A stretch of DNA of 64,000 nt from Chloroflexota bacterium. GTDB lineage: Bacteria > Chloroflexota > Anaerolineae > UBA1429. Position numbers and translations under genes: made by a program. The notes under the pieces were generated by a model. That model made no database searches. It was not told the origin of the DNA and worked only from the letters and a program-made list of their open reading frames with translations. Every line of letters starts with the position of its first letter. The stretch's first letter is position 1. The stretch lies in contig JAAYDC010000001.1 of NCBI GenBank assembly GCA_012729455.1, positions 1 to 64,000 of the forward strand, in the 5' to 3' direction. Positions 2,121-33,688 of this stretch are shown piece by piece.

Positions 2121-2193
2121 GACAACAGCAGGCGCGACACCAATATGTTTCAGAGGCGTGCGGGAGCGTAATGTGTTCGCGTGCCTCTTTTCA

Positions 2194-2577
2194 GGTGGAG
2201 ATGGCGGGAATCGAACCCGCGTCCAAAAAGTTCGGCCAGAGATATACTACAAGCTTAGTTACCGTTTGGTTCTCGCAATCCGGCACCCCGGCAACAGGGT
2301 GTTCAGCTGCCAGCCGATGTTTCTTTGTCAGCGCTTATCGGCATCGTGCTGACGCAATCCGATTTTGTCGACGCCTGCTTCCGTCCTCTCGGATAAAGTA
2401 CGTGGCAGACGTGGCTGACGCTGTCAGCCAGTGGCTCGTCTAGCTGTTGTTAGGCAGCCAGAGCGAAAGCCGGAGCATAAGTGTTGTTGGCACTTGTCTT
2501 GTTGCCCATTTTAACGCGGTTAGGCGCCTCGGCTTGCAATCGCGGACCAGCCCTCCCTGTCGAAGCCTGTCATCCCC
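2194..2577 (-). ncRNA. ssrA: transfer-messenger RNA (tmRNA)
   Basis: Reading leftward, the RNA starts GGGGAUGACAGGCUUCGAC and ends GGUUCGAUUCCCGCCAUCUCCACC. The ends pair into a seven-base acceptor stem beside a T-arm, the hallmark of one-piece tmRNA. The tag reading frame at 2453-2491 encodes ANNTYAPAFALAA and is followed by TAA at 2450-2452. The ALAA ending is the usual signal for Clp/Lon-type proteases. tmRNA rescues stalled ribosomes together with SmpB. The final A of CCA is not encoded (the base after ACC is T), so CCA repair is implied. Length is about 384 bases, normal for the family. Confidence 0.95.
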
Positions 2578-22064: not shown

Positions 22065-23120
22065 ATGAGCGACGCACCCGTGCGTGAATACACCTTACAC
22101 CCGTACTTTCATCGGCGCTGGGAACACGTCGGCCGCGCTTTAGCGCTGGATACCAGCAGCCTGCTGGCCTATCAAGCCTGGCGATTGCGTGCGATCGCCC
22201 GCTTAAAGGAGCTGATCGGTTACGACACGCTCGAGAGCTGCGATCTGTCGCCAGTGGTAACCGAACGCCTCGAGATGGATGGCTACATTCGCGAGCGAAT
22301 CGAGCTGCAGGTCGAGCCGGAGCTGTGGATGCCGGTCTATGCCCTGTTGCCGGCAGGCAAGGCAAGCTACCCAGCCGCGATCGCCCCGCACGGTCATGGC
22401 AGCGGCGGCAAGTACGCCGTGGCAGGCCGGCGCGATATCCCCGAGATCGCAGGCACGATTGAAGAGCACAACTATGACTATGGCGTGCAGCTGACGCAGC
22501 GCGGCATCGCCGCCTTTTGCCCCGACGCGCGCGGCTTTGGTGAGCGTCAGGAGCTCTCGGTGCGCAACAGCCTGCTGAATTCCTCGTGCCGCGATATCAA
22601 TGCCATGGCCTACCCGCTTGGGCAAACCATCACCGGCATGTGGGCTTATGACCTGCACCGCCTGGCGGATTACATCCAGACCCGCTCCGACTGCCAGCCC
22701 GGCAAGCTGGCTTGCGTGGGGCTATCAGGCGGCGGGTTGCAGACCTTGTGGGCGACCGCCCTGGATGAGCGTATCCGCTGTGCGGTCATCAGCGGTTACT
22801 TTTATGGTTATCGCGAGTCGCTTTTGGAGATGTGCGAAAACTGCTGGTGCAACTATGTGCCGCACCTCTACGAGACGATGGATATGGGAGACATCGCAGC
22901 GTTGATCGCCCCGCGCCCGCTGATGATCGAATCGGGCGACGAGGACCCCCTGAACGGCGCCAGCGGTCTGGCGAATGTTACCAGCCAGGTCGAGATCACG
23001 CGGCGAGCCTATCGCTTAATGGGTGCCAATGACCAGCTTTATCACAGTGTCGGTCACGGCGCGCATCGCTGGTACGGCCACGAAGCGCTGCCCTGGCTGG
23101 TCGAACAACTGAGCGCCTAG
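22065..23120 (+). CDS. alpha/beta hydrolase, acetyl-xylan-esterase/dienelactone-hydrolase-like
   Basis: A 351-residue hydrolase with PAAIAPHGHGSGG (oxyanion region, near residue 105), GVQLTQRGIAAFCPDARGFGER near 145, nucleophile elbow GLSGGG near 222, acid region ESGDEDPLNG near 288 and His in GHGAHRW near 330. It belongs to the large-insert esterase families found beside glycan-degradation genes. Start ATG 22065 is preceded by AGGAG at a good distance; an ATG six bases earlier is too close. It overlaps by four bases the 3' end of the convergent MFS gene. Likely a cytoplasmic carbohydrate esterase (inference). Confidence 0.75.
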   Translation: MSDAPVREYTLHPYFHRRWEHVGRALALDTSSLLAYQAWRLRAIARLKELIGYDTLESCDLSPVVTERLEMDGYIRERIELQVEPELWMPVYALLPAGKASYPAAIAPHGHGSGGKYAVAGRRDIPEIAGTIEEHNYDYGVQLTQRGIAAFCPDARGFGERQELSVRNSLLNSSCRDINAMAYPLGQTITGMWAYDLHRLADYIQTRSDCQPGKLACVGLSGGGLQTLWATALDERIRCAVISGYFYGYRESLLEMCENCWCNYVPHLYETMDMGDIAALIAPRPLMIESGDEDPLNGASGLANVTSQVEITRRAYRLMGANDQLYHSVGHGAHRWYGHEALPWLVEQLSA

Positions 23121-24313
23121 GGCTGTTGCACCGGTTCTTCGGCCGGGTTGCGCAGAAGGGTCGTCAGCACCACCCCCACCAGCATGGCTACGACCGCCGT
23201 CGCTACCAGCATCGGGCGGATGCCCATCTCCTCTGCCAGCCAGCCCGAGATAGCCGGGCCAAAGAACATGCCAAAGGCATATATCGACTGGTGCAGGCCC
23301 ATCGCTGAGGTGCGCTGCGATTCGTCTACGCGCTGAATGCTCATGCCCATCAGCACGGGCGCACTGATGCCCTGCGAGAGGCCGATCAGCAGCTGAAAGA
23401 CCAGCAGCCATACCAGTGACCTCGATAGGGCGCTGGTCGCTACGCCCACTGCCAGCATGATAAAAGTTATGTGGATAGTGCGCTTTTGGCCCAGGCGACG
23501 CACCAACAAGGAGGTGGCCATCAGGTTGCCGACGATCACAATCGCCACGTTGGCGCTGACCATGATCGACTGGGTATAGTCGGTTGCCCCCAACTCTTCT
23601 GCCAGGATCGGCAAAAAGCCAAAGATGGCCGCCCAAGTGGCATATTGGCTCACGGTGGCGAGGATGGTCGGCAGCATCACATCGCGGCGCGTAAACAGCC
23701 CCGCCAGGGCGCGCAGCGAGGGCGCCTTGGGCGGACGCGGTTCTTCACGTGCCGTCAAAACCAGTACAAAGGCCAGACCGGCCGATCCGGCTGCCAGGAA
23801 AAAGGGCAGGCTGTAGCCGCCGTTATTGTTGAGCCAGCCGGTCGATCCGGTGGCAAAAAGGCGCCCAACCGATCCAAAGAGGGTCAACAGCGCCGTTGCG
23901 CGCACCGTCTCATGCGGTTTAAAGAGGCGGTTAAAGACGACTACCAGCGGTACCCACGTGCCGGCTGCCAGCCCGCTGATGGCGCGTCCGATCAGCATGC
24001 CGTTGATGGTGCCCGAAGTTCCCATCACCAGTGCGGCAGTGGCCGAAAGCACAAACCCGGCGAGAATAAAGGGCTTGCGCCGGCCGATCCAATCCGAGAC
24101 AATGCCCAGCGGTAGACGGATGATGGCCTGCCACAGGCCATACATGGAGAGCACCATTCCCACGCGTGCCAGGTCGCTGGTTTTGCTGGCGGTATAAGTT
24201 GGTAATGTTGGCACGTAAAAGTACAGCGACATCCAATAGAGCGCCACAGTTACGCCATATATCCACACTAGGCGCTTGTTCTGGCGCTCATCCTGCAAGG
24301 GTTTCTCTGTCAT
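23117..24313 (-). CDS. major facilitator superfamily transporter
   Basis: A 398-residue integral membrane protein with twelve predicted helices. The MFS signature between helices 2 and 3 is LGIVSDWIGRRKPF (about residues 68-81). Helix 4 carries GRAISGLAAGTW, and the two halves are joined by a basic loop (REEPRPPKAPS near 190). It resembles drug/proton antiporters and sugar efflux transporters, but the substrate cannot be told. ATG 24313 is preceded by AGGAG. It is divergent from the lys leader region. Confidence 0.85.
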   Translation of the reverse strand: MTEKPLQDERQNKRLVWIYGVTVALYWMSLYFYVPTLPTYTASKTSDLARVGMVLSMYGLWQAIIRLPLGIVSDWIGRRKPFILAGFVLSATAALVMGTSGTINGMLIGRAISGLAAGTWVPLVVVFNRLFKPHETVRATALLTLFGSVGRLFATGSTGWLNNNGGYSLPFFLAAGSAGLAFVLVLTAREEPRPPKAPSLRALAGLFTRRDVMLPTILATVSQYATWAAIFGFLPILAEELGATDYTQSIMVSANVAIVIVGNLMATSLLVRRLGQKRTIHITFIMLAVGVATSALSRSLVWLLVFQLLIGLSQGISAPVLMGMSIQRVDESQRTSAMGLHQSIYAFGMFFGPAISGWLAEEMGIRPMLVATAVVAMLVGVVLTTLLRNPAEEPVQQP

Positions 24314-24373
24314 ACCAGCTCCTTGATGCAATTCGGGCTATCATGCGCCACTCGTATGAAAATAGCAAGCGTT

Positions 24374-24402
24374 TTGACATGTATCTGCATCTATGCTATT
24401 GT
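24374..24402 (+). promoter_or_regulatory. promoter of the lysine operon
   Basis: Consensus TTGACA at 24374-24379, a 17-base spacer and TATTGT at 24397-24402 with an extended -10 TG at 24394-24395. Transcription would begin near 24409, giving a leader of about 180 bases before lysW. It is one of the best promoter matches in the window. Confidence 0.8.
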
Positions 24403-24444
24403 AAGGCAAGTTCAGGTGGAGCTAGAAACACAGCCGTGCTGACC

Positions 24445-24492
24445 ATGATTCTATCCGATGGCATAAAGCATAAGAAAAAGATGCCGACGTAA
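24445..24492 (+). CDS. Lys-rich leader peptide of the lysine operon
   Basis: A 15-codon ORF, MILSDGIKHKKKMPT, contains four lysine codons within six (AAG CAT AAG AAA AAG, preceded by ATA). It lies between a strong promoter and an intrinsic terminator just before lysW. This is the standard layout of ribosome-mediated attenuation, where charged tRNA-Lys would decide whether the terminator forms. The Lys codons sit in the loop of a possible hairpin GGCAT / ATGCC. An AGGTGGAG at 24414-24421 is the only ribosome-site-like sequence; it is rather far from ATG 24445 and 14 bases from an in-frame GTG at 24436, so the exact start is uncertain. Confidence 0.6.
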   Translation: MILSDGIKHKKKMPT

Positions 24493-24533
24493 GTCTGGCC
24501 GGCTTGCTCATACCTACAACGAGCGTACAAAAG

Positions 24534-24568
24534 GCAGCTACTCCAGATGAAAGGAGAGCTGCTTTTTT
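24534..24568 (+). terminator. intrinsic terminator/attenuator before lysW
   Basis: Stem GCAGCTACTCC / GGAGAGCTGC with one bulged A, an eight-base loop and six T. It ends 22 bases before the lysW start codon and downstream of the operon promoter, so it must be bypassed for lys expression. A competing antiterminator could not be assigned by eye. Confidence 0.8.
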
Positions 24569-24590
24569 ATTATCACAGGGAGAAACCAAC

Positions 24591-24764
24591 ATGGCGAACG
24601 CAAACTGTCCCGAATGTGAAGGCGTGATCGAGTTGGCTGACGGCAGCTTTGTGGCTGGCGAGATCATCGACTGCCCTGACTGCGGTGTCGAACTCGAGAT
24701 AACCTCGGTTCAACCGCTGACGCTCGAACTGGCACCCGAAGAAGAAGAGGATTGGGGAGAATAG
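24591..24764 (+). CDS. lysW: amino-group carrier protein LysW
   Basis: A 57-residue acidic protein with two zinc-binding CPxC pairs (CPECEG near residue 6, CPDCG near 28) and the C-terminal EDWGE signature. The terminal Glu gamma-carboxyl or alpha-amino group carries 2-aminoadipate while LysX, LysZ, LysY and LysJ act on it. The intermediate is released as lysine by LysK. GGGAG lies eight bases before ATG. It is the first gene after the attenuator, so its translation directly follows the leader. In organisms with a LysW system the same carrier may also serve ornithine/arginine synthesis. Confidence 0.96.
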   Translation: MANANCPECEGVIELADGSFVAGEIIDCPDCGVELEITSVQPLTLELAPEEEEDWGE

Positions 24765-24770
24765 TAACGC

Positions 24771-25916
24771 ATGGCGATCCAGCGTTTTTCGATCATCGAG
24801 TCGACACTTCGCGAAGGCGAGCAGTTTGTCGGTGCCAACTTTACTACCGAACAAAAGGTGCGCATTGCAGAGACACTCGACCGCTTTGGCGTCGAGTACC
24901 TCGAGTTGACCTCGCCAGCCGCTTCACCGCAGAGTCTCGAGGATTTGCGCACCATCACCGGGCTTGGCCTGAAAGCCAAGATCCTTACGCATGTGCGCTG
25001 CACGCTGGATGATGCAAAACTGGCTGCCCAGACCGGCGTGGATGGCATCGATGTTGTGATCGGCACTTCGTCGGTGTTGCGCAAGTTCAGCCTGGGAAAG
25101 AGCATTGATGAGATCATGGTGCTGGCCACCGATGTGGTCAAATACATCCGCGACCAGGGCCTGGAAGTACGCTTTTCGACAGAAGACTCGTTTCGTTCCG
25201 AGATGGATGACATCTTGGCGATCTATGAGCAAGTCGACAAACTCGGTGTGAACCGCGTAGGTATCGCCGATACCGTCGGCGTTGCCAACCCACTGCAGGT
25301 CTACAAGCTGGTCTCTACTTTGCGTAGCCGGGTTAGCTGCGACATCGAGTTCCACGGCCACAACGACACGGGCTGCGCCATCGCCAACGCTTTCTGCGCG
25401 CTGGAAGCTGGCGCTACCCATATTGATACCAGCGTGCTGGGCATCGGTGAGCGTAACGGCATCCCCTCGCTGGGAGGGATGGTGGCGCGCATGTATGTCA
25501 CCGACCGCGCCAGTGTAAGCAAGTACAACCTGCCGGTGATCGGCGAGCTCGATCACATGGTGGCCGAGATGGTGGGGGTCGATATCCCCTTTAACAACTA
25601 TATTACGGGCATCACCGCCTTTACCCACAAGGCCGGCATCCACGCCAAAGCTGTGCTGAACAACCCCGAGACCTATGAGATCCTCTCGCCAAAGGATTTC
25701 GGGTTGACGCGCTACATCAGCATCGCCCACCGTCTGACAGGCTGGAATGCGATCAAGTCGCGCGCTGAACAGCTTGGGCTGGCGATCCCGGATACCGAGA
25801 TCAAAGCGCTCACCGCGCACATCAAAGAGATGGCCGATCAGCGCGCCCTGACGCTCGATGACGTCGATAGCGTGCTCAAGACCTGGATCGATGCGCATCC
25901 GATAGGAGGTGCCTGA
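24771..25916 (+). CDS. lysS: homocitrate synthase
   Basis: A 381-residue member of the DRE-TIM metallolyase family that condenses 2-oxoglutarate with acetyl-CoA to homocitrate, the entry step of the aminoadipate route. The first motif reads [16 protein letters not shown] (residues 8-23), HVRC is near 75, and the metal-binding [14 protein letters not shown] is near 197-210. [12 protein letters not shown] (about 286) is the flexible-region motif of the homocitrate and isopropylmalate synthase group. It begins six bases after lysW and its TGA is directly followed by the GTG of lysT. Feedback inhibition by lysine is common in this family. Confidence 0.93.
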
Positions 25917-27176
25917 GTGAGCCCTGTCGACCAACCTACCCACGGCCGCACCCTGGCCGAGCAGATCCTGGGGCATGCCGCCGGCCAGGACGTGCGCGCC
26001 GGCGACCTGGTGATCGTGCCAGTCGACCGCTGCATGACGCACGACTCGCTGACTCCCGAGATCATCGATGCCCTGCACAACAATCTGGGGGTCGAGCACG
26101 TGTATGACCCAGAACGCGTGGCCGTGATCATGGATCACGTCGCGCCGGCTGCCAGTGTGGCTACCGCTAATGCCCAGGCGCGCACGCGCAAATGGGTGCG
26201 CGAACAGGGTATTCGCAACTTTTTCGAGGTTGGTGCGGGCGTGTGCCATCAGGTACTGATCGAAGAACGCCTCGTCCTGCCCGGACAGGTGGCGATCGGC
26301 TCGGATTCGCACGCCACCATGTACGGCGCCATCGGTGCTTTTGGTACTGGCATGGGCACTGGCGACCTGGCACTCGCCCTTGCCAGCGGACGCACCTGGC
26401 TGCGGGTGCCCGAGTCGATCAAGGTCAGCATTAGTGGGCGCTTTCGCCCCTATGTGAGCCCCAAGGATATTTCGCTCTATTTGTGCGGGCTGCTGGGGCT
26501 GGATGGCGCCACCTATCAGGCGGTCGAGTTCCACGGCGTCGACTGGCTGTCGCTCGAAGGGCGTGAGGTGCTCTCCGGCATGAGCACCGAGATCGGTGCC
26601 AAAGCCGGGCTGGTGGTGCCTGATGGCGTGGTAGCCGAGACCTATGATGTGCCAGGCTGGCTTTATGCCGACCCGCAGGCACAGTATCGCCGTGAAATTG
26701 TAGTCGATCTGAACAAGCTCGGATCGCAGGTGGCGATCCCTCCCGAGGTCGACCACATTGCCTCCGCAGGCGATTTGCGCGATGTCAAGGTTGATCAGGT
26801 GTTTGTGGGCACCTGCACCAACGGCCGCTTGGAGGATCTGCACGCCCTGGCCAACATATTGCGTGGGCACAAAGTGGCACCGCATGTGCGCTTGCTGGTG
26901 ATCCCGGCTTCGCAACGCATCCTGCAGCAGGCTGTTGCCGACGGCACCCTTTCGGTGCTGCTGGCGGCGGGCGCCACGCTTGGCACCCCTGGCTGCGGTC
27001 CCTGCATCGGCCGCCATATGGGCGTCATCGGTGCCGGCGAAGTGTGCCTTTCGACCGCCAACCGTAATTTCCGCGGCCGCATGGGCGATCCGGATGCCAG
27101 CGTCTACCTGGCATCGCCCGAAGTGGCCGGCGCCACCGCCCTGCGCGGTTATATCAGCGACCCATCAGAGCTGTAA
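25917..27176 (+). CDS. lysT: homoaconitase large subunit
   Basis: 419 residues, of the aconitase/isopropylmalate isomerase large-subunit type. Motifs: VDRCMTHDSLTPEII near residue 36, GSDSHATMYGAIGAFGTGMGTGD near 122-144, and three cluster cysteines in VGTCTNGR (near 300) and GCGPCIGRH (near 361). It isomerises homocitrate to homoisocitrate with LysU. GTG start is set by GGAGGT eight bases upstream and abuts the stop of lysS. The context with LysW and homoisocitrate dehydrogenase favours homoaconitase over leucine biosynthesis. Confidence 0.92.
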   Translation: MSPVDQPTHGRTLAEQILGHAAGQDVRAGDLVIVPVDRCMTHDSLTPEIIDALHNNLGVEHVYDPERVAVIMDHVAPAASVATANAQARTRKWVREQGIRNFFEVGAGVCHQVLIEERLVLPGQVAIGSDSHATMYGAIGAFGTGMGTGDLALALASGRTWLRVPESIKVSISGRFRPYVSPKDISLYLCGLLGLDGATYQAVEFHGVDWLSLEGREVLSGMSTEIGAKAGLVVPDGVVAETYDVPGWLYADPQAQYRREIVVDLNKLGSQVAIPPEVDHIASAGDLRDVKVDQVFVGTCTNGRLEDLHALANILRGHKVAPHVRLLVIPASQRILQQAVADGTLSVLLAAGATLGTPGCGPCIGRHMGVIGAGEVCLSTANRNFRGRMGDPDASVYLASPEVAGATALRGYISDPSEL

Positions 27177-27193
27177 ACTCGAGGAGCATAGCT

Positions 27194-27694
27194 TTGGCCA
27201 GAATATGGTTGTTCCCTGACGATATCGACACTGACCAGATCGTACCCGGGCGCTATGCCCCCTATATGACTTCCGAGGCCGAGCTGGGCAAGTATCCCTT
27301 TATCGAGTATCGCCCCGAGTTCGCCGCTAAAGTACAGCCCGGCGACCTGATCGTGGCTGGCAGCAACTTTGGCTGTGGTTCGTCGCGCGAATATGCCCCC
27401 CGCGCCCTGGTGGCGGTGGGTATCGCTGCGATTATCGCGCCCAGCTTTAGCCGCATCTTTTACCGCAATGCTCTGAATCTCGGGCTCAAGCTCTTTGAGG
27501 CCGATTTGGTGCGCGATCTCTCCGATGGCGAGCACGTGGTGTATGACGACGCATCATTCACTATCCGTACCGGTGCAGGCATCCTACACACCCTGCCCCA
27601 ACCGCCTGACTGGCTGCGACAAACCTGGGTAGAAGGCGGTATTGTGAGCTATTACCGCAAATACCAGCGTCTGCCGGTGGGAGGCGCGGAGTGA
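27194..27694 (+). CDS. lysU: homoaconitase small subunit
   Basis: 166 residues, the swivel-domain subunit of homoaconitase. Characteristic segments are [15 protein letters not shown] (residues 7-21), [17 protein letters not shown] near 56-72 and [19 protein letters not shown] near 79-97. TTG start with GAGGAG upstream. Its last codons overlap the GTG of the dehydrogenase gene by four bases. The YMTS segment in place of the YLR found in LeuD is expected for LysU-type subunits. Confidence 0.92.
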
Positions 27695-28692
27695 GCTACC
27701 GTGTCTGCCTGATTGCCGGCGACGGCATCGGCCGAGAGGTTGTCCCTGCTGCCCAGCAGGTGCTAAGCGCCACTGGCCTGGCGTTTAACTTTACCAGTGC
27801 CGAGGCCGGTTGGGAAACCTTTCAACGCCACGGCACATCGCTGCCGGAGGCAACTCTCACCGCTGTCACCGAGGCTCAAGCGACCCTTTTTGGAGCGGTT
27901 TCGTCGCCGCTCAACCCCGTGGAGGGATACCGCAGCCCGATCGTGGCCATGCGGCGCGCCCTTAACCTGTACGCCAACCTGCGGCCGGTCATTTCGGCGC
28001 CCATCGCCGGCTCAAAGCCAGGTATCGACATGCTGATCGTGCGCGAAAACACCGAGGGCCTGTATGCTAGCCACGAGCGCGCCAGCCAAGAGGAAGCCGT
28101 TACCGAGCGTGTCATCACGCGCGCTGCCTCGCAGCGCATTGTGCGGTTGGCATTCCAGCTGGCGCGTCAGCGCCGCAAGCTGGTGACGGTCGTGCACAAG
28201 GCCAACGTGCTGCGCGCTACCTGCGGACTCTTTCGGCGCACCGCCTTTGAGGTGGCGGCCGAATTCCCCGAGGTGACTGCCGAGGAAGCCCTGGTGGATT
28301 CACTGGCGATGCGACTGATCCTCGGGCCCGAGCACTATGATGTGATCGTCACCACCAATCTATTTGGCGACATCCTCTCGGACGAGGCTGCCGCGCTGGT
28401 TGGCGGGCTCGGACTGGCGCCTTCTGCCAATGTGGGTGACCGGCAGGGGCTCTTTGAGCCGGTGCACGGCTCGGCACCCGATATCGCGGGCAAGGGGATT
28501 GCCAGTCCGCTGGCAACTATCCTGGCGGCCGCCATGCTGCTAGACCATCTAGGGGAGCCTGTACAGGCTGAGAGGGTGCGCACCGCCGTGATGCGCGTCC
28601 TGCAAGGTTCGGACCTCACCCCCGATCTGGGCGGCAATGCCAGCACGTCGCAGGTGACGGCTGCGGTTATTTCTGCGCTGAATGCGAATTAA
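27691..28692 (+). CDS. homoisocitrate dehydrogenase
   Basis: A 333-residue beta-decarboxylating dehydrogenase: [13 protein letters not shown] (residues 9-21), the substrate loop LYANLRPV near 94, [10 protein letters not shown] near 114, KANVLR near 170, [20 protein letters not shown] near 221-240 and [14 protein letters not shown] near 253-266. It oxidises homoisocitrate to 2-oxoadipate with NAD+. The segment after VRENTEGLY is of the homoisocitrate/isocitrate kind rather than LeuB. GTG start overlaps lysU. 2-Oxoadipate must then be transaminated, but no LysN-type aminotransferase is in the operon. Confidence 0.9.
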
Positions 28693-28713
28693 CGAGATCT
28701 ACGGAGGAAGAGA

Positions 28714-29568
28714 ATGCGCGTTGGGATGCTGATGTCACGCGTGCGTGTGGAAGAGAAACTCCTCATCGAGGGCTTTGCGCGCGCTGGTCAAGAGGTCGAC
28801 CTGATCGATGACCGCGAACTGGTGCTCGATATCAGTGACCCCTCCCGCCTTAACGGCTATGACGTGATTATCGAACGCTGCATTAACCATTCCAGGGCGG
28901 TTACTATCCTCGAGCTGCTGGAAGCGTGGGGTGTGCCGGCGGTGAACAACTTTACAGTCGCCAACATATGCGGCAGCAAGTTCTCGACCACCAAAGCCCT
29001 GATTGCGAACGGTGTGCCCAGCCCGCGTACGCTGCTAGCATTTACCCCCGAATCTGCGCTGGAGGCGATCGAGACCCTCGGGTATCCGGCTGTGCTCAAG
29101 CCGGCGGTCGGATCATGGGGCAGGCTGCTGGCGCGTGTCAACGACCGCGACGCGGCTGAAGCAATTCTGGAGCACAAGAGCGTGCTGGGCTCGTATCAGC
29201 ACTCGATTTTCTACATCCAGGAATACATCGACAAACCCATGCGCGATATCCGCAGCTTTGTGGTGGGCGGCGAAAACATCTGCGCCATCTACCGCACCTC
29301 GCCGCACTGGATCACCAACACGGCGCGCGGCGGACAGGCCTCCAACTGCCCGATCATCCCCGAGATCGAGGCGCTTTCGCTGGCAGCTGCACGGGCGGTG
29401 GGCGGCGGCATGGTAGCGATTGACCTGCTGGAAAAGCCCAACGGCGAGCTGGTGGTCAACGAGGTCAACTATACCATGGAGTTTCGCAACAGCATCGATA
29501 CCACGGGTGTCGATATCCCGTCTAAAATGATTGACTATGTGCTGCGCGTCGGTAGAGGTGCACAATGA
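28714..29568 (+). CDS. lysX: LysW:2-aminoadipate ligase
   Basis: 284 residues, an ATP-grasp (RimK-like) ligase that joins the alpha-amino group of 2-aminoadipate to the C-terminal Glu of LysW. Seen: [10 protein letters not shown] near residue 50, [23 protein letters not shown] near 70-92, [16 protein letters not shown] near 128, [14 protein letters not shown] near 168, [13 protein letters not shown] near 201 and [13 protein letters not shown] near 249. The last two are typical LysX/ArgX signatures. GGAGGAAG precedes ATG, and the stop overlaps lysY by ATGA. Confidence 0.94.
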
Positions 29569-30629
29569 CAATCAAGGTTGCTATTCTGGGAGCCTCTGGA
29601 TACGCTGGCGGCGAGGTTTTGAGGCTGCTGCTGGATCACCCTGAAGTGGAGGTCTCGCAGGTCACATCCGAGCGCAACGCTGGCCGTTATGTCTATAGCC
29701 TGCACCCCAACCTGCGCAAGCGCACCAACCTGCAGTTTGTCCCATCGGCCGCCCTTGAGCCCTGTGATGTGCTCTTCAGCGCCCTGCCGCACGGCGAAGC
29801 CATGGAGCGCATCGAGCGCCTGAGCGAGTTGGCGCCCAAGCTGATCGACCTCTCGGCCGATTTTCGCCTGCATAGTTCAGATGATTATGTCAAATGGTAT
29901 GATCGCCCTCACGCCAATCCCTCCTGGCTAGAGCGTTTTGTCTATGGGCTGCCCGAGATCAACCGCGAAGCGATCCGAGGTGCTGATTTCGTCTCGGGAG
30001 TTGGCTGCAATGCCACAGTGACTAATCTCGCGTTGTGGCCGCTCTTCCGTGCCGATCTGGCCGACCGCAGCCACGGGGTGATCGTCGAGGTCAAGGCAGG
30101 CTCCTCAGAAGGGGGCGCTCAGGCGACCCCCTCCTCGCACCATCCCGATCGCAGCCACGCGGTGCGCTCGTTCGCGCCTGTCGGCCATCGCCACACTGCC
30201 GAGGTGCTGCAGGCTTTGGGCGCCGCACAGGATCCGCTGGCGGTGCATATGTCGGTGACCTCGATCGAGCTGGTGCGCGGGGTGCTGGCGACCGCGCATG
30301 TATTCGTCAAACCCGAGCTGCTCGAACAGGGCTTTGCCCTCAAGGACCTGTGGAAAGCCTACCGCGGTGCCTATGGCGAGGAGCCCTTTATCCGTCTGGT
30401 GCGCGAGCAAAAGGGCGTGTATCGCTTCCCCGAGCCGAAAATCCTGGCAGGCAGCAACTATGCCGATGTCGGCTTTGACTATGACCCGGCCACCGGGCGC
30501 GTGGTGGCAATTGCTGCGCTTGATAACCTGATGAAGGGCGCGGCTGGCACCGCCGTGCAGTGCATGAACCTGATGTGCGGCTTTGAAGAGACCACGGGGC
30601 TGACCTTTAGCGGTCTGCATCCCGCCTGA
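29565..30629 (+). CDS. lysY: LysW-2-aminoadipate 6-phosphate reductase
   Basis: 354 residues, an ArgC homologue: [20 protein letters not shown] (residues 9-28), catalytic Cys in [17 protein letters not shown] near 144-160, and [20 protein letters not shown] near 174-193 with the conserved His. It reduces the carrier-bound acyl phosphate to the semialdehyde with NADPH. In this operon, between lysX and lysZ, the substrate is LysW-aminoadipyl phosphate rather than N-acetylglutamyl phosphate. In some LysW organisms one enzyme serves both lysine and arginine. Confidence 0.93.
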
Positions 30630-30639
30630 GGAGGCAACC

Positions 30640-31446
30640 ATGATCGTTGTCAAGGTCGGCGGCAGCGTCGGCATCGACCTGGCAGCACTGTGCCAGGATA
30701 TCGGCGAACTTGTCAGGAACGGACAGCAGCTCGTATTGGTGCATGGCGGTTCAGCGCGCACCAATGAGGTTGCAGCTCAACTGGGACATCCGCCGCAGTT
30801 TGTCACCTCGGTGTCTGGCTTTACCTCGCGCCGCACCGACCGCGAGACACTGCGTATTTTTGAGATGGTTTACTGCGGCGAGGTGAACAAGGGCATAGTC
30901 GAAATGCTGCAAGCCCAGGGCGTCAACGCGGTTGGCTTGTCAGGTATCGATGGCAGACTGCTGAGCGGCCGGCGCAAGGAAGCCATCAAGATCGTGGATG
31001 AGCGCGGTCGGCGTATGGTGCTGCGCGACGACTATACCGGCACGGTCGAGCAGGTCAATACCAGCCTGATCGAGCTGCTGCTAGAAAATGGCTATTTGCC
31101 TGTGATCACACCGCCGGCAATCTCCGACCAGAATGAGGCCATCAATGTTGACGGTGACCGCGCTGCAGCGCTGATCGCATCGAGCTTGAAAGCAGAAAAG
31201 CTGATAATCCTCTCCAACGTGCCGGGCTTGTTGCGCAACTTTCCGGACGAATCCAGCCTGATCCGCCAGATCGACGCAGCCCAGGTTGGCCAGTTCATGG
31301 AGCATGCTCAGGGGCGCATGCGCATCAAGGTGCTGGGGGCGATCGAGGCGATCGAGCAGGGCGTGCGTCAGGTCGTTTTTGCGGATGGCCGCATCGCAAA
31401 ACCGCTCAGTGCGGCGCTGGCCGGTGGCGGCACGGTGATCGGATAA
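30640..31446 (+). CDS. lysZ: LysW-2-aminoadipate 6-kinase
   Basis: 268 residues of the amino acid kinase family (ArgB homologue): VVKVGGSVG at residues 3-11, [13 protein letters not shown] near 32, [26 protein letters not shown] near 83-108, and the nucleotide site near LSNVPGLL (about 190). It phosphorylates the side-chain carboxylate of carrier-bound aminoadipate. ATG 30640 follows GAGGAGGCAACC. Spacing to lysY is ten bases and to lysJ twenty, consistent with one transcript. Confidence 0.94.
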
Positions 31447-31466
31447 CACTAGCAGGGGAGACAAGC

Positions 31467-32624
31467 ATGGATAGCATTACACGCGAAAATCGCTACACCA
31501 GCGGGGTTTACCCCAAACGCGAGCTCGCTTTGGTGCGCGGCGAGGGCGCTACGGTGTGGGATGAGGCTGGCCGCAGCTATATCGATTGCGTCGGCGGGCA
31601 TGGCGTGGCGATCGTGGGGCATTGCCATCCGCAGGTCAGTGCGGCGATCTGTGCCCAAGCGCAGCGTCTGATTACCTGCCCAGAGATCTTTTACAACGAT
31701 GTGCGCGCCCAGCTCGAAGAGCGCCTCTGCCAGATCGCACCGGCTGGGCTCGAGCACGTCTACCTGTGTAATTCCGGCACCGAGGCGGTCGAGGCAGCAT
31801 TCAAGTTTGCGCGTTTGGCCACCGGGCGCACCGGCATTGTGGCGGCGATGCGCTCTTTCCATGGGCGCACCATGGGTGCCCTTTCCGCCACCTGGGAGCC
31901 CAACTACCGCACCCCCTTCAATCCGCTCCTGCCGGACGTGCAGCACGTGCCCTACAACAAGCTGTCTGCCCTCGACGATGTTCTGGATGACAGCACGGCT
32001 GCGCTGATCCTCGAGGTAGTGCAGGGCGAGGGCGGCGTCAACCTGGGCGATGCCGACTATCTGCGCGGTGCCCAGGCGCTCTGCCGCGAGCGCGGCGTGT
32101 TGCTGATTATCGACGAGGTGCAGACCGGCTTTGGCCGCACTGGCAAGTTGTGGGCCTGTGAGCATGCCGGGTTGCAGCCCGACCTGCTCTGCTGCGCCAA
32201 GGGCATTGCCGGCGGGGTGCCGATGGGTGCCGTGCTGCTGGGAGAGCGCGTCATTAACCTGCGTCCGGGCGTACATGGCTCGACCTTTGGCGGTAATCCG
32301 TTGGCCTGTGCCGCGTCGCTGGCTGCCATTGCGGTCATTACCGGTGAGGACTTGCCCGGTATGGCAGCTGCCAAAGGTACATGGCTGCTGGAGCGTCTGC
32401 GCAAGATCGAGGCACCGCTGATCCGTGAGGTGCGCGGGCTTGGGCTGATCGTGGGCATTGAGCTGCGCCAAAAAGCCACCCCCTACCTGAAGGCTCTAAT
32501 GACCGAAGGGTTGCTGGCATTGCCAGCCGGCAGCACCGTCATTCGACTCTTGCCGCCGCTGGTGATCAGCCAGAACGAGCTGGAGCGCGCCAGCGAGATC
32601 ATCGAACGGGTGCTGACAGTCTGA
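31467..32624 (+). CDS. lysJ: LysW-2-aminoadipate semialdehyde aminotransferase
   Basis: 385 residues, class III PLP aminotransferase (ArgD-like): [18 protein letters not shown] near 35-52, [17 protein letters not shown] near 96-112, [12 protein letters not shown] near 130, [10 protein letters not shown] near 182, [15 protein letters not shown] near 215-229 and the PLP lysine in [14 protein letters not shown] near 245. It transfers an amino group, usually from glutamate, to make LysW-lysine. TGA overlaps the ATG of lysK by one base. Confidence 0.94.
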
Positions 32625-33688
32625 TGCAGATCTCGAACGACGCCGAAGCCTGCGAGTTCCTGCAAGAACTGGTAGCGATTCCGTCGCTTTCGGGCAATGA
32701 AGCAGCCGCAGCAGAATGCTTTGTGCGCGAGATGACCATGTACGGCTCTGAAGCCAACATAGACGCGGCCGGCAATGCCGTGGCGCGCTTTGGCACGGGC
32801 CAGCGCCAGCTGGTGCTGTTGGGGCATATTGACACCGTGCCCGGTGAGGTGCCGGTGCGTCGTGAGGGCTCTCGCCTGTATGGACGCGGTGCGGTGGATG
32901 CCAAAGGTCCTCTGGCAGCAATGGCGATGGCTGCTGCACGCTGCGGGGCGCGCGAAGGCTGGCAGGTGGTCGTAGCCGGCGCCACCGAAGAAGAGGCTGC
33001 CACTTCGCGTGGGGCGCGCTATCTGGCCACCCAGTTGGCGCCTGAATACTGCATCATCGGCGAACCCAGCGGCTGGAACCGCATCACACTCGGATACAAG
33101 GGGCGTCTGCTGCTGCACTATCGTCTCGAGCAGCCCAGCGGACATTCTGCAGGGCAGCAGACCAATGCGGTGGAAGAAGCGGTGCGTTTCTGGAACCACC
33201 TGCAATCCTGGTGTGAGGGTTACAACGCCGGCACCGAAGGGCGTTTTGCGGCGATCGACCCGGCTCTACAGCGCATCAACAGCGATTCGGACGGCCTGTG
33301 CGACAGCGTGACGATACAAATCAGCCTGCGCCTACCGCCTGAGGCGCCTCTGGAAGCGCTGCGCAGCCAAATCGACAGCTGGCGCGGAGACGCCTGCATC
33401 GACGAATCTGGTAAAGAGGAGGCGGTGGTAGAGGAAAAGCGCAGCCCCCTGACAGCCGCCTTTCTGGGAGCCATCCGCAGCGAGGGTGCCCGCCCTGCCT
33501 TTGTCTTTAAGACAGGCACCTCGGATATGAACGTGGTCGCGCCAGTGTGGCGCTGTCCGATAGTCGCCTACGGACCGGGTGATTCGGCGCTCGACCACAC
33601 CCCCGACGAACACATCGACCTGGACGAGTACCTCGCCAGCATCCGTGTGCTGCAGGCCGTGATCGAACGCCTCACCACAGCTATATAG
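32624..33688 (+). CDS. lysK: LysW-lysine hydrolase
   Basis: 354 residues of the M20 zinc amidohydrolase family: LLGHIDTVPGEVPVR near 66 (His and Asp metal ligands), GRGAVDAKGPLAAM near 87-100, ATEEEAATSRGARYL near 120-134 (catalytic Glu pair), IIGEPSGWN near 143 and the late FKTGTSDMNV near 292. It splits lysine from the LysW C-terminus and regenerates the carrier. It is the last gene of the operon; its end overlaps by eight bases the convergent GH106-like gene, and no intrinsic terminator is visible between them. Confidence 0.93.
   Translation: MQISNDAEACEFLQELVAIPSLSGNEAAAAECFVREMTMYGSEANIDAAGNAVARFGTGQRQLVLLGHIDTVPGEVPVRREGSRLYGRGAVDAKGPLAAMAMAAARCGAREGWQVVVAGATEEEAATSRGARYLATQLAPEYCIIGEPSGWNRITLGYKGRLLLHYRLEQPSGHSAGQQTNAVEEAVRFWNHLQSWCEGYNAGTEGRFAAIDPALQRINSDSDGLCDSVTIQISLRLPPEAPLEALRSQIDSWRGDACIDESGKEEAVVEEKRSPLTAAFLGAIRSEGARPAFVFKTGTSDMNVVAPVWRCPIVAYGPGDSALDHTPDEHIDLDEYLASIRVLQAVIERLTTAI

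Follow-up and report, generated by a model that had tools for sequence, protein, structure and literature searches.

The lysine biosynthesis operon that begins with lysW in the 64,000-nucleotide stretch of DNA from an uncultured member of the Chloroflexota analyzed here (contig JAAYDC010000001.1, positions 1 to 64,000; hereafter, the window) is very probably controlled by a ribosome-mediated transcription attenuator of the trp/his type, which would sense charged tRNA-Lys and act on the whole lysW-hcs-lysTU-...-lysK operon. A preliminary description of the window had proposed such attenuation, and the proposal is now supported by the conservation of the element at 13 of 13 loci in the family, by similar leaders across the class, and by covariation of an antiterminator. 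The evidence consists of sequence parts, their conservation, strand complementarity with covariation, and a codon identity that tracks the product of the operon. Beyond the window, it is likely that leader-peptide attenuators are widespread on LysW operons in the Anaerolineae, with Lys codons before operons carrying homocitrate synthase, Arg codons before argX-argG-argH operons, and several loci carrying two Lys attenuators.

A lysine-codon leader and a terminator precede the lysW operon

The LysW-dependent lysine operon occupies 24591-33688 of the window, with all genes on the forward strand. Its first gene, lysW (24591-24764; NCBIfam TIGR01206, above cut-off), is followed by the gene for homocitrate synthase of the alpha-aminoadipate route to lysine (24771-25916; TIGR02146, 477.7 bits against a cut-off of 413.6) and, at 25917-33688, by profile matches for the homoaconitase large and small subunits, homoisocitrate dehydrogenase, LysX, LysY (argC family), LysZ, LysJ, and LysK; within this last segment, the LysX, [LysW]-aminoadipate kinase, and [LysW]-lysine hydrolase models matched above cut-off. 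Elsewhere, the window carries a tmRNA gene (2193-2577, reverse strand; Rfam RF00023).

A promoter scan found a sigma-70-type promoter at 24374-24402 on the forward strand (TTGACA-17-TATTGT, 10 of 12 bases matching the consensus) with the extended -10 element TATGC, as the preliminary description had stated. The 15-codon leader open reading frame (ORF) described there was likewise recovered by inspection of the sequence and alignment to relatives: it runs on the forward strand from ATG 24445 to the TAA stop at 24490-24492 (24445-24492) and encodes MILSDGIKHKKKMPT, with Lys codons at 24466, 24472, 24475, and 24478, i.e., at four of the six codons of I-K-H-K-K-K. No Shine-Dalgarno sequence was seen at the usual spacing from ATG 24445; the alternative start candidate, GTG 24436, has a GGAG 14 nt upstream. 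The automatic ORF finder overlooked this leader, whose frame is open far upstream.

On the forward strand, the leader transcript can be divided into four regions. Region 1 holds the regulatory codons AAG CAT AAG AAA AAG (24466-24480), and several Lys codons occur here in 14/14 family members. Region 2, GTCTGGCCGGCTTGCTC (24493-24509), is the 5' strand of the antiterminator, and region 3, GGCAGCTACTCCAGAT (24533-24548), identified by strand pairing, is both the 3' strand of the antiterminator and the 5' arm of the terminator. Regions 3 and 4 form the intrinsic terminator (24533-24568; GGCAGCT-A-CTCC/GGAG-AGCTGC followed by T6), which ends 22 nt upstream of the lysW ATG at 24591, just where the preliminary description had placed a strong terminator, and which has a counterpart in 14/14 family members. 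Its folding energy is -17.8 kcal/mol; shuffled versions average -7.8, and 1 of 1000 does equally well. A simple terminator scanner did not pick it up, probably owing to the bulged A.

A terminator lying between genes can always be taken for the point where transcription from upstream ends or for a constitutive brake, in which case the Lys codons would be there by chance. The probability of this is negligible in our judgment, since the upstream gene (23117-24331) lies on the opposite strand, the promoter directly precedes the leader, and a short ORF with at least four Lys codons in six appeared in only 0.44% of 5000 dinucleotide shuffles of 24403-24590 and in 2 of 1358 half-overlapping 188-nt tiles covering both strands of the window; it is also contradicted by the class-wide conservation and covariation described below.

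Read as an attenuator, the element would work as follows. When lysine is short, a ribosome translating the leader would stall on the Lys codons and leave region 2 free to pair with region 3 as the RNA polymerase makes it; this 2:3 pairing would preclude the terminator, and the operon would be transcribed. With ample lysine, the ribosome would reach the stop codon and its footprint would cover region 2, so that region 3 would pair with region 4 and transcription would end 22 nt before lysW. In relatives, a leader free of ribosomes would pair regions 1 and 2 with each other across the Lys codons (GAGCAAG/CTTGCTC).

The leader is conserved in the family and the class

We searched for lysW in 15 genomes of the family (metagenome assemblies where named; matches to named collections put the relatives in the Anaerolineae) and found it in 14, with 13 loci, the window excluded, at which lysW is followed by homocitrate synthase. 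Conservation of the Lys-codon ORF in relatives proved complete in this sample: a leader ORF with Lys codons and a terminator were present at all 13 loci, which represent 12 genera. A promoter of the form TTGACA-like/17/TANNNT lies upstream of the leader in 14/14 family members, with an extended -10 in 13. The family's leader ORFs mostly follow the pattern ..K(K/R)SKxKKP..SG-stop, ending in Ser-Gly-stop ahead of the terminator, and the last 17 codons of the 14 leaders include 58 Lys codons (56 AAG and 2 AAA). Several relatives have a Shine-Dalgarno sequence with a start codon (e.g., L003, L006, L007, L008, and L012). Similar leaders occur in at least 11 more families of the class; among the few non-Anaerolineae genomes sampled, no Lys leader was found upstream of lysW.

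Apart from the window's 2-nt loss, alignment gaps within the codon block measure 3 or 6 nt; the spacer upstream of the terminator, by contrast, varies freely in the family alignment. Such a contrast marks a translated frame. The pattern bears on a further explanation, that the element is a riboswitch or T-box binding lysine or tRNA-Lys directly and that the ORF is accidental. Strong structure (folding z-score of -2.9) and a terminator before a lysine operon would be expected of such an element, too. We nevertheless consider it very improbable: the codon-block indels keep the frame and the in-frame stop is retained in 13/13 relatives, no Rfam covariance model, the lysine riboswitch (L-box) and T-box models included, matched in the window leader or in the 13 relatives, no conserved aptamer-like core is evident beyond the codons and the alternative pairs, and before arginine operons Arg codons replace the Lys codons with the layout unchanged (see below).

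Two further features of these leaders were observed. In several family members, the spacer between regions 2 and 3 holds a small hairpin whose letters differ from relative to relative (e.g., CCTCGCATCTGAGG in L014, TACGCGCAAAGCGTA in L007, and CCTCATTCGTGAGG in L003) and which probably brings regions 2 and 3 together or pauses the polymerase. Between the terminator and lysW, six relatives (L004, L008, L009, L010, L012, and L013) share a conserved segment, CCCGCAGTGTYG(CYCCGGTGATGG), that is absent in the window and is found with mismatches in L003 and L005. This segment is complementary over 12-13 nt to the homocitrate synthase gene downstream, at approximately codons 7-14 (control segments share at most 7-10 nt), and a C/T difference in it tracks a G/A difference in that gene; a long-range RNA interaction around lysW is one possible reason, an ancient inverted repeat another.

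An antiterminator covaries with the terminator

The preliminary description left the antiterminator unclear. We found it at the stop-codon segment (24493-24509 in the window), which pairs with the 5' arm of the terminator (24533-24548); the two structures are mutually exclusive, and the antiterminator covaries across relatives, with the window having a weaker, 13-bp version. In relatives, region 2 spans the last codons up to CTTGCTC, which lies just past the stop and doubles as the 3' arm of a pause hairpin, pairing with GAGCAAG within the Lys codons (region 1:2). In L011, for example, region 2 (CTCTGGTCTGGTTAGGCTTGCTC) pairs over approximately 20 bp with region 3 (GAGCAGCTTTCCCCAGACCAG), which can alternatively pair with region 4 as the terminator. 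The same 2:3 helix is built from different letters in L003 (CACTGGTCTGG/CCAGACCAGTG), L012 (CTCCGGTCTGG/CCAGACCGGAG), L008 (ACGGTCTGG/CCAGACCGT), and L035 (GGAAGGGTT/AGCCCTTCC).

RNAalifold run on a MAFFT alignment recovered the pause hairpin and the terminator; since it cannot display two alternative pairings and the alignment is wrong in the terminator loop, we relied on swapped-strand tests. These bore out the covarying stems sought in relatives. Within the family, cognate antiterminator duplexes averaged -16.9 kcal/mol compared with -14.3 for swapped strands (permutation P < 5e-5, relatedness not being fully corrected for), and among 12 families with Lys leaders, represented by one sequence each, the values were -19.5 and -16.0 kcal/mol (P = 0.0002). 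Canonical 2:3 pairs numbered 165 of 238, against 149.7 in permutations (P = 5e-5), and the six outer positions gave P = 7.5e-4. The pause hairpin of the GAGCAAG/CTTGCTC type pairs in 12-13 of the 13 relatives, with modest covariation (P = 0.033). A different hairpin, GGCAT/ATGCC, had been suggested to enclose the Lys codons; its letters are present in the window, but it was rejected as the conserved pause hairpin, since the relatives use GAGCAAG/CTTGCTC.

Folding with the ribosome footprint masked was consistent with a switch. With the ribosome on the last Lys codons, the predicted probability of the antiterminator was near 0.8-1.0 in 10 of 13 relatives; with the ribosome at the stop, it was 0 in all 13. 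The antiterminator forms without a ribosome as well in 4 of the 10 that switch (L004, L006, L011, and L012), so the informative contrast in those four is that between the Lys codons and the stop. This simple folding model gave no switching in L007 and L013, and L010 switched at one codon only.

The window copy is diverged

The window's copy is the most diverged in the family: region 1 is altered, the pause hairpin is degenerate, and the 2:3 duplex, at 13 bp and about -15 kcal/mol, is the weakest in the family, its cognate pairing ranking 13th of 14. Compared with the nearest relative, L002, the window has lost 2 nt (TACAAGTCTGGCTAG to TAAGTCTGGCC), and the stop consequently now lies before region 2 rather than inside it.

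These changes, together with the unusual start context, would fit an element in decay that still terminates transcription while its lysine-dependent switch has become weak or been lost. We regard this as unlikely, though it is the most credible of the alternatives. The Lys codons (four in six), regions 2 and 3, the terminator, and the promoter are all retained, and the leaders L034, L035, and L048 also have their stop before region 2. Ribosome-masked folding of the window leader gave a divided result. With region 3 just transcribed, 10.5 of approximately 13 expected 2:3 pairs remained when a ribosome was stalled at the last Lys codon, and 0 when it stood at the stop, in agreement with the proposed switch; in the longer transcript, a 5' segment (GGTGGAGCTAG, 24409-24440) competes, and the antiterminator was robust only if that segment was kept from pairing. 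On the strength of these models, we think that the window's attenuator works, less sharply than the leaders of its relatives.

Leader codons follow the product of the operon

Beyond the family, 10 more loci have a Lys leader (KKxxKKPDxGSG-stop and similar) with homocitrate synthase at most 9 kb downstream on the same contig, so that, with the 14 in the family, a Lys leader and homocitrate synthase share one operon at 24 loci. At three loci in family f16, the gene found 5-6 kb downstream resembles homocitrate synthase but scores below the curated cut-off, and at six Lys-leader loci (L034, L035, L065, L103, L111, and L113) no homocitrate synthase was located on the same contig.

Arg codons take the place of the Lys codons at nine loci (L015, L038, L044, L057, L074, L082, L094, L097, and L107), in forms such as IRRARAK..., RARKRAKRG..., and RVRRARTS.... 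Many Arg-rich candidates are chance frames in GC-rich DNA, and we kept only those backed by a complementary pair or by an arginine operon; the Arg leaders that were checked do have complementary 2:3 strands. Homocitrate synthase was absent from the stretch of operon seen at all nine of these loci, and a search with TIGR02146 at 1e-20 gave no match in five of the Arg-leader genomes. The two Arg-leader operons that were read along their whole length, in family f10 and in family f9 (the genes of the latter assigned by reading translations), have the composition lysW-argX-argX'-argC-argB-argD-argE plus argG and argH. Both kinds of leader occur together in genome G014, the Lys leader (L006) preceding lysW-homocitrate synthase and the Arg leader (L015/L209) preceding a second cluster, with lysW and lysX.

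At four other loci (L036, L037, L041, and L042, partly in family f43), an ORF with the conserved start MQRRSxxR lies upstream of lysW and is itself preceded by a conserved stretch (GCGTCAATATCACCCGCG...); no terminator is obvious before lysW. This is perhaps another type of Arg-codon leader control.

Some loci carry two Lys attenuators in series

Two complete Lys attenuators stand in series at five loci (L027/L129, L065/L167, L102, L113, and L137), each copy having a complementary pair that differs from that of the other. Both would have to be passed in turn, which would be expected to give a steeper response.

Relation to known systems

Attenuators of the trp/his/thr/leu type are documented mainly in Proteobacteria and Actinobacteria, and his leaders have been reported in bacilli. 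The elements described here resemble them in having a leader ORF with runs of regulatory codons, four alternating RNA regions, and a terminator before the first biosynthetic gene; they differ in phylum, in their specificity for Lys or Arg, in standing in tandem at some loci, and in a region 2 that in most relatives overlaps the last codons and the stop of the leader. The mechanism would be the classical trp/his type, while the swap between Lys and Arg codons and the tandem copies are unusual. In Thermus thermophilus, the lysine gene cluster is reportedly controlled by leader-peptide attenuation through a Lys-codon leader; that system likewise has its leader upstream of an alpha-aminoadipate lysine cluster, but it belongs to a different phylum. 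In other bacteria, lysine riboswitches and T-boxes likewise regulate lysine genes through premature termination, whereas the Chloroflexota leader matches neither covariance model and is proposed to sense by codons.

The authors of one report on a leader peptide system in bacilli state that, until that case, they knew of amino-acid leader peptides in Proteobacteria and Actinobacteria only (PMC2965389). The preliminary description knew of no such leader in Chloroflexota, and the papers that we searched likewise describe none, an absence that is not proof of novelty.

Our results would extend classical attenuation to the Chloroflexota, for both lysine and arginine. The product of a LysW cluster is often not settled by annotation of its paralogous enzymes, and as the LysW system serves either amino acid, the leader codons could be used as an independent marker of what a cluster makes. 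Through the exchange between Lys and Arg codons and through the tandem copies, one could study how an RNA sensor changes its specificity. If the picture holds, two Lys attenuators in series should sharpen the response, and the switching of attenuator specificity after duplication of the LysW system would be directly traceable in the Anaerolineae.
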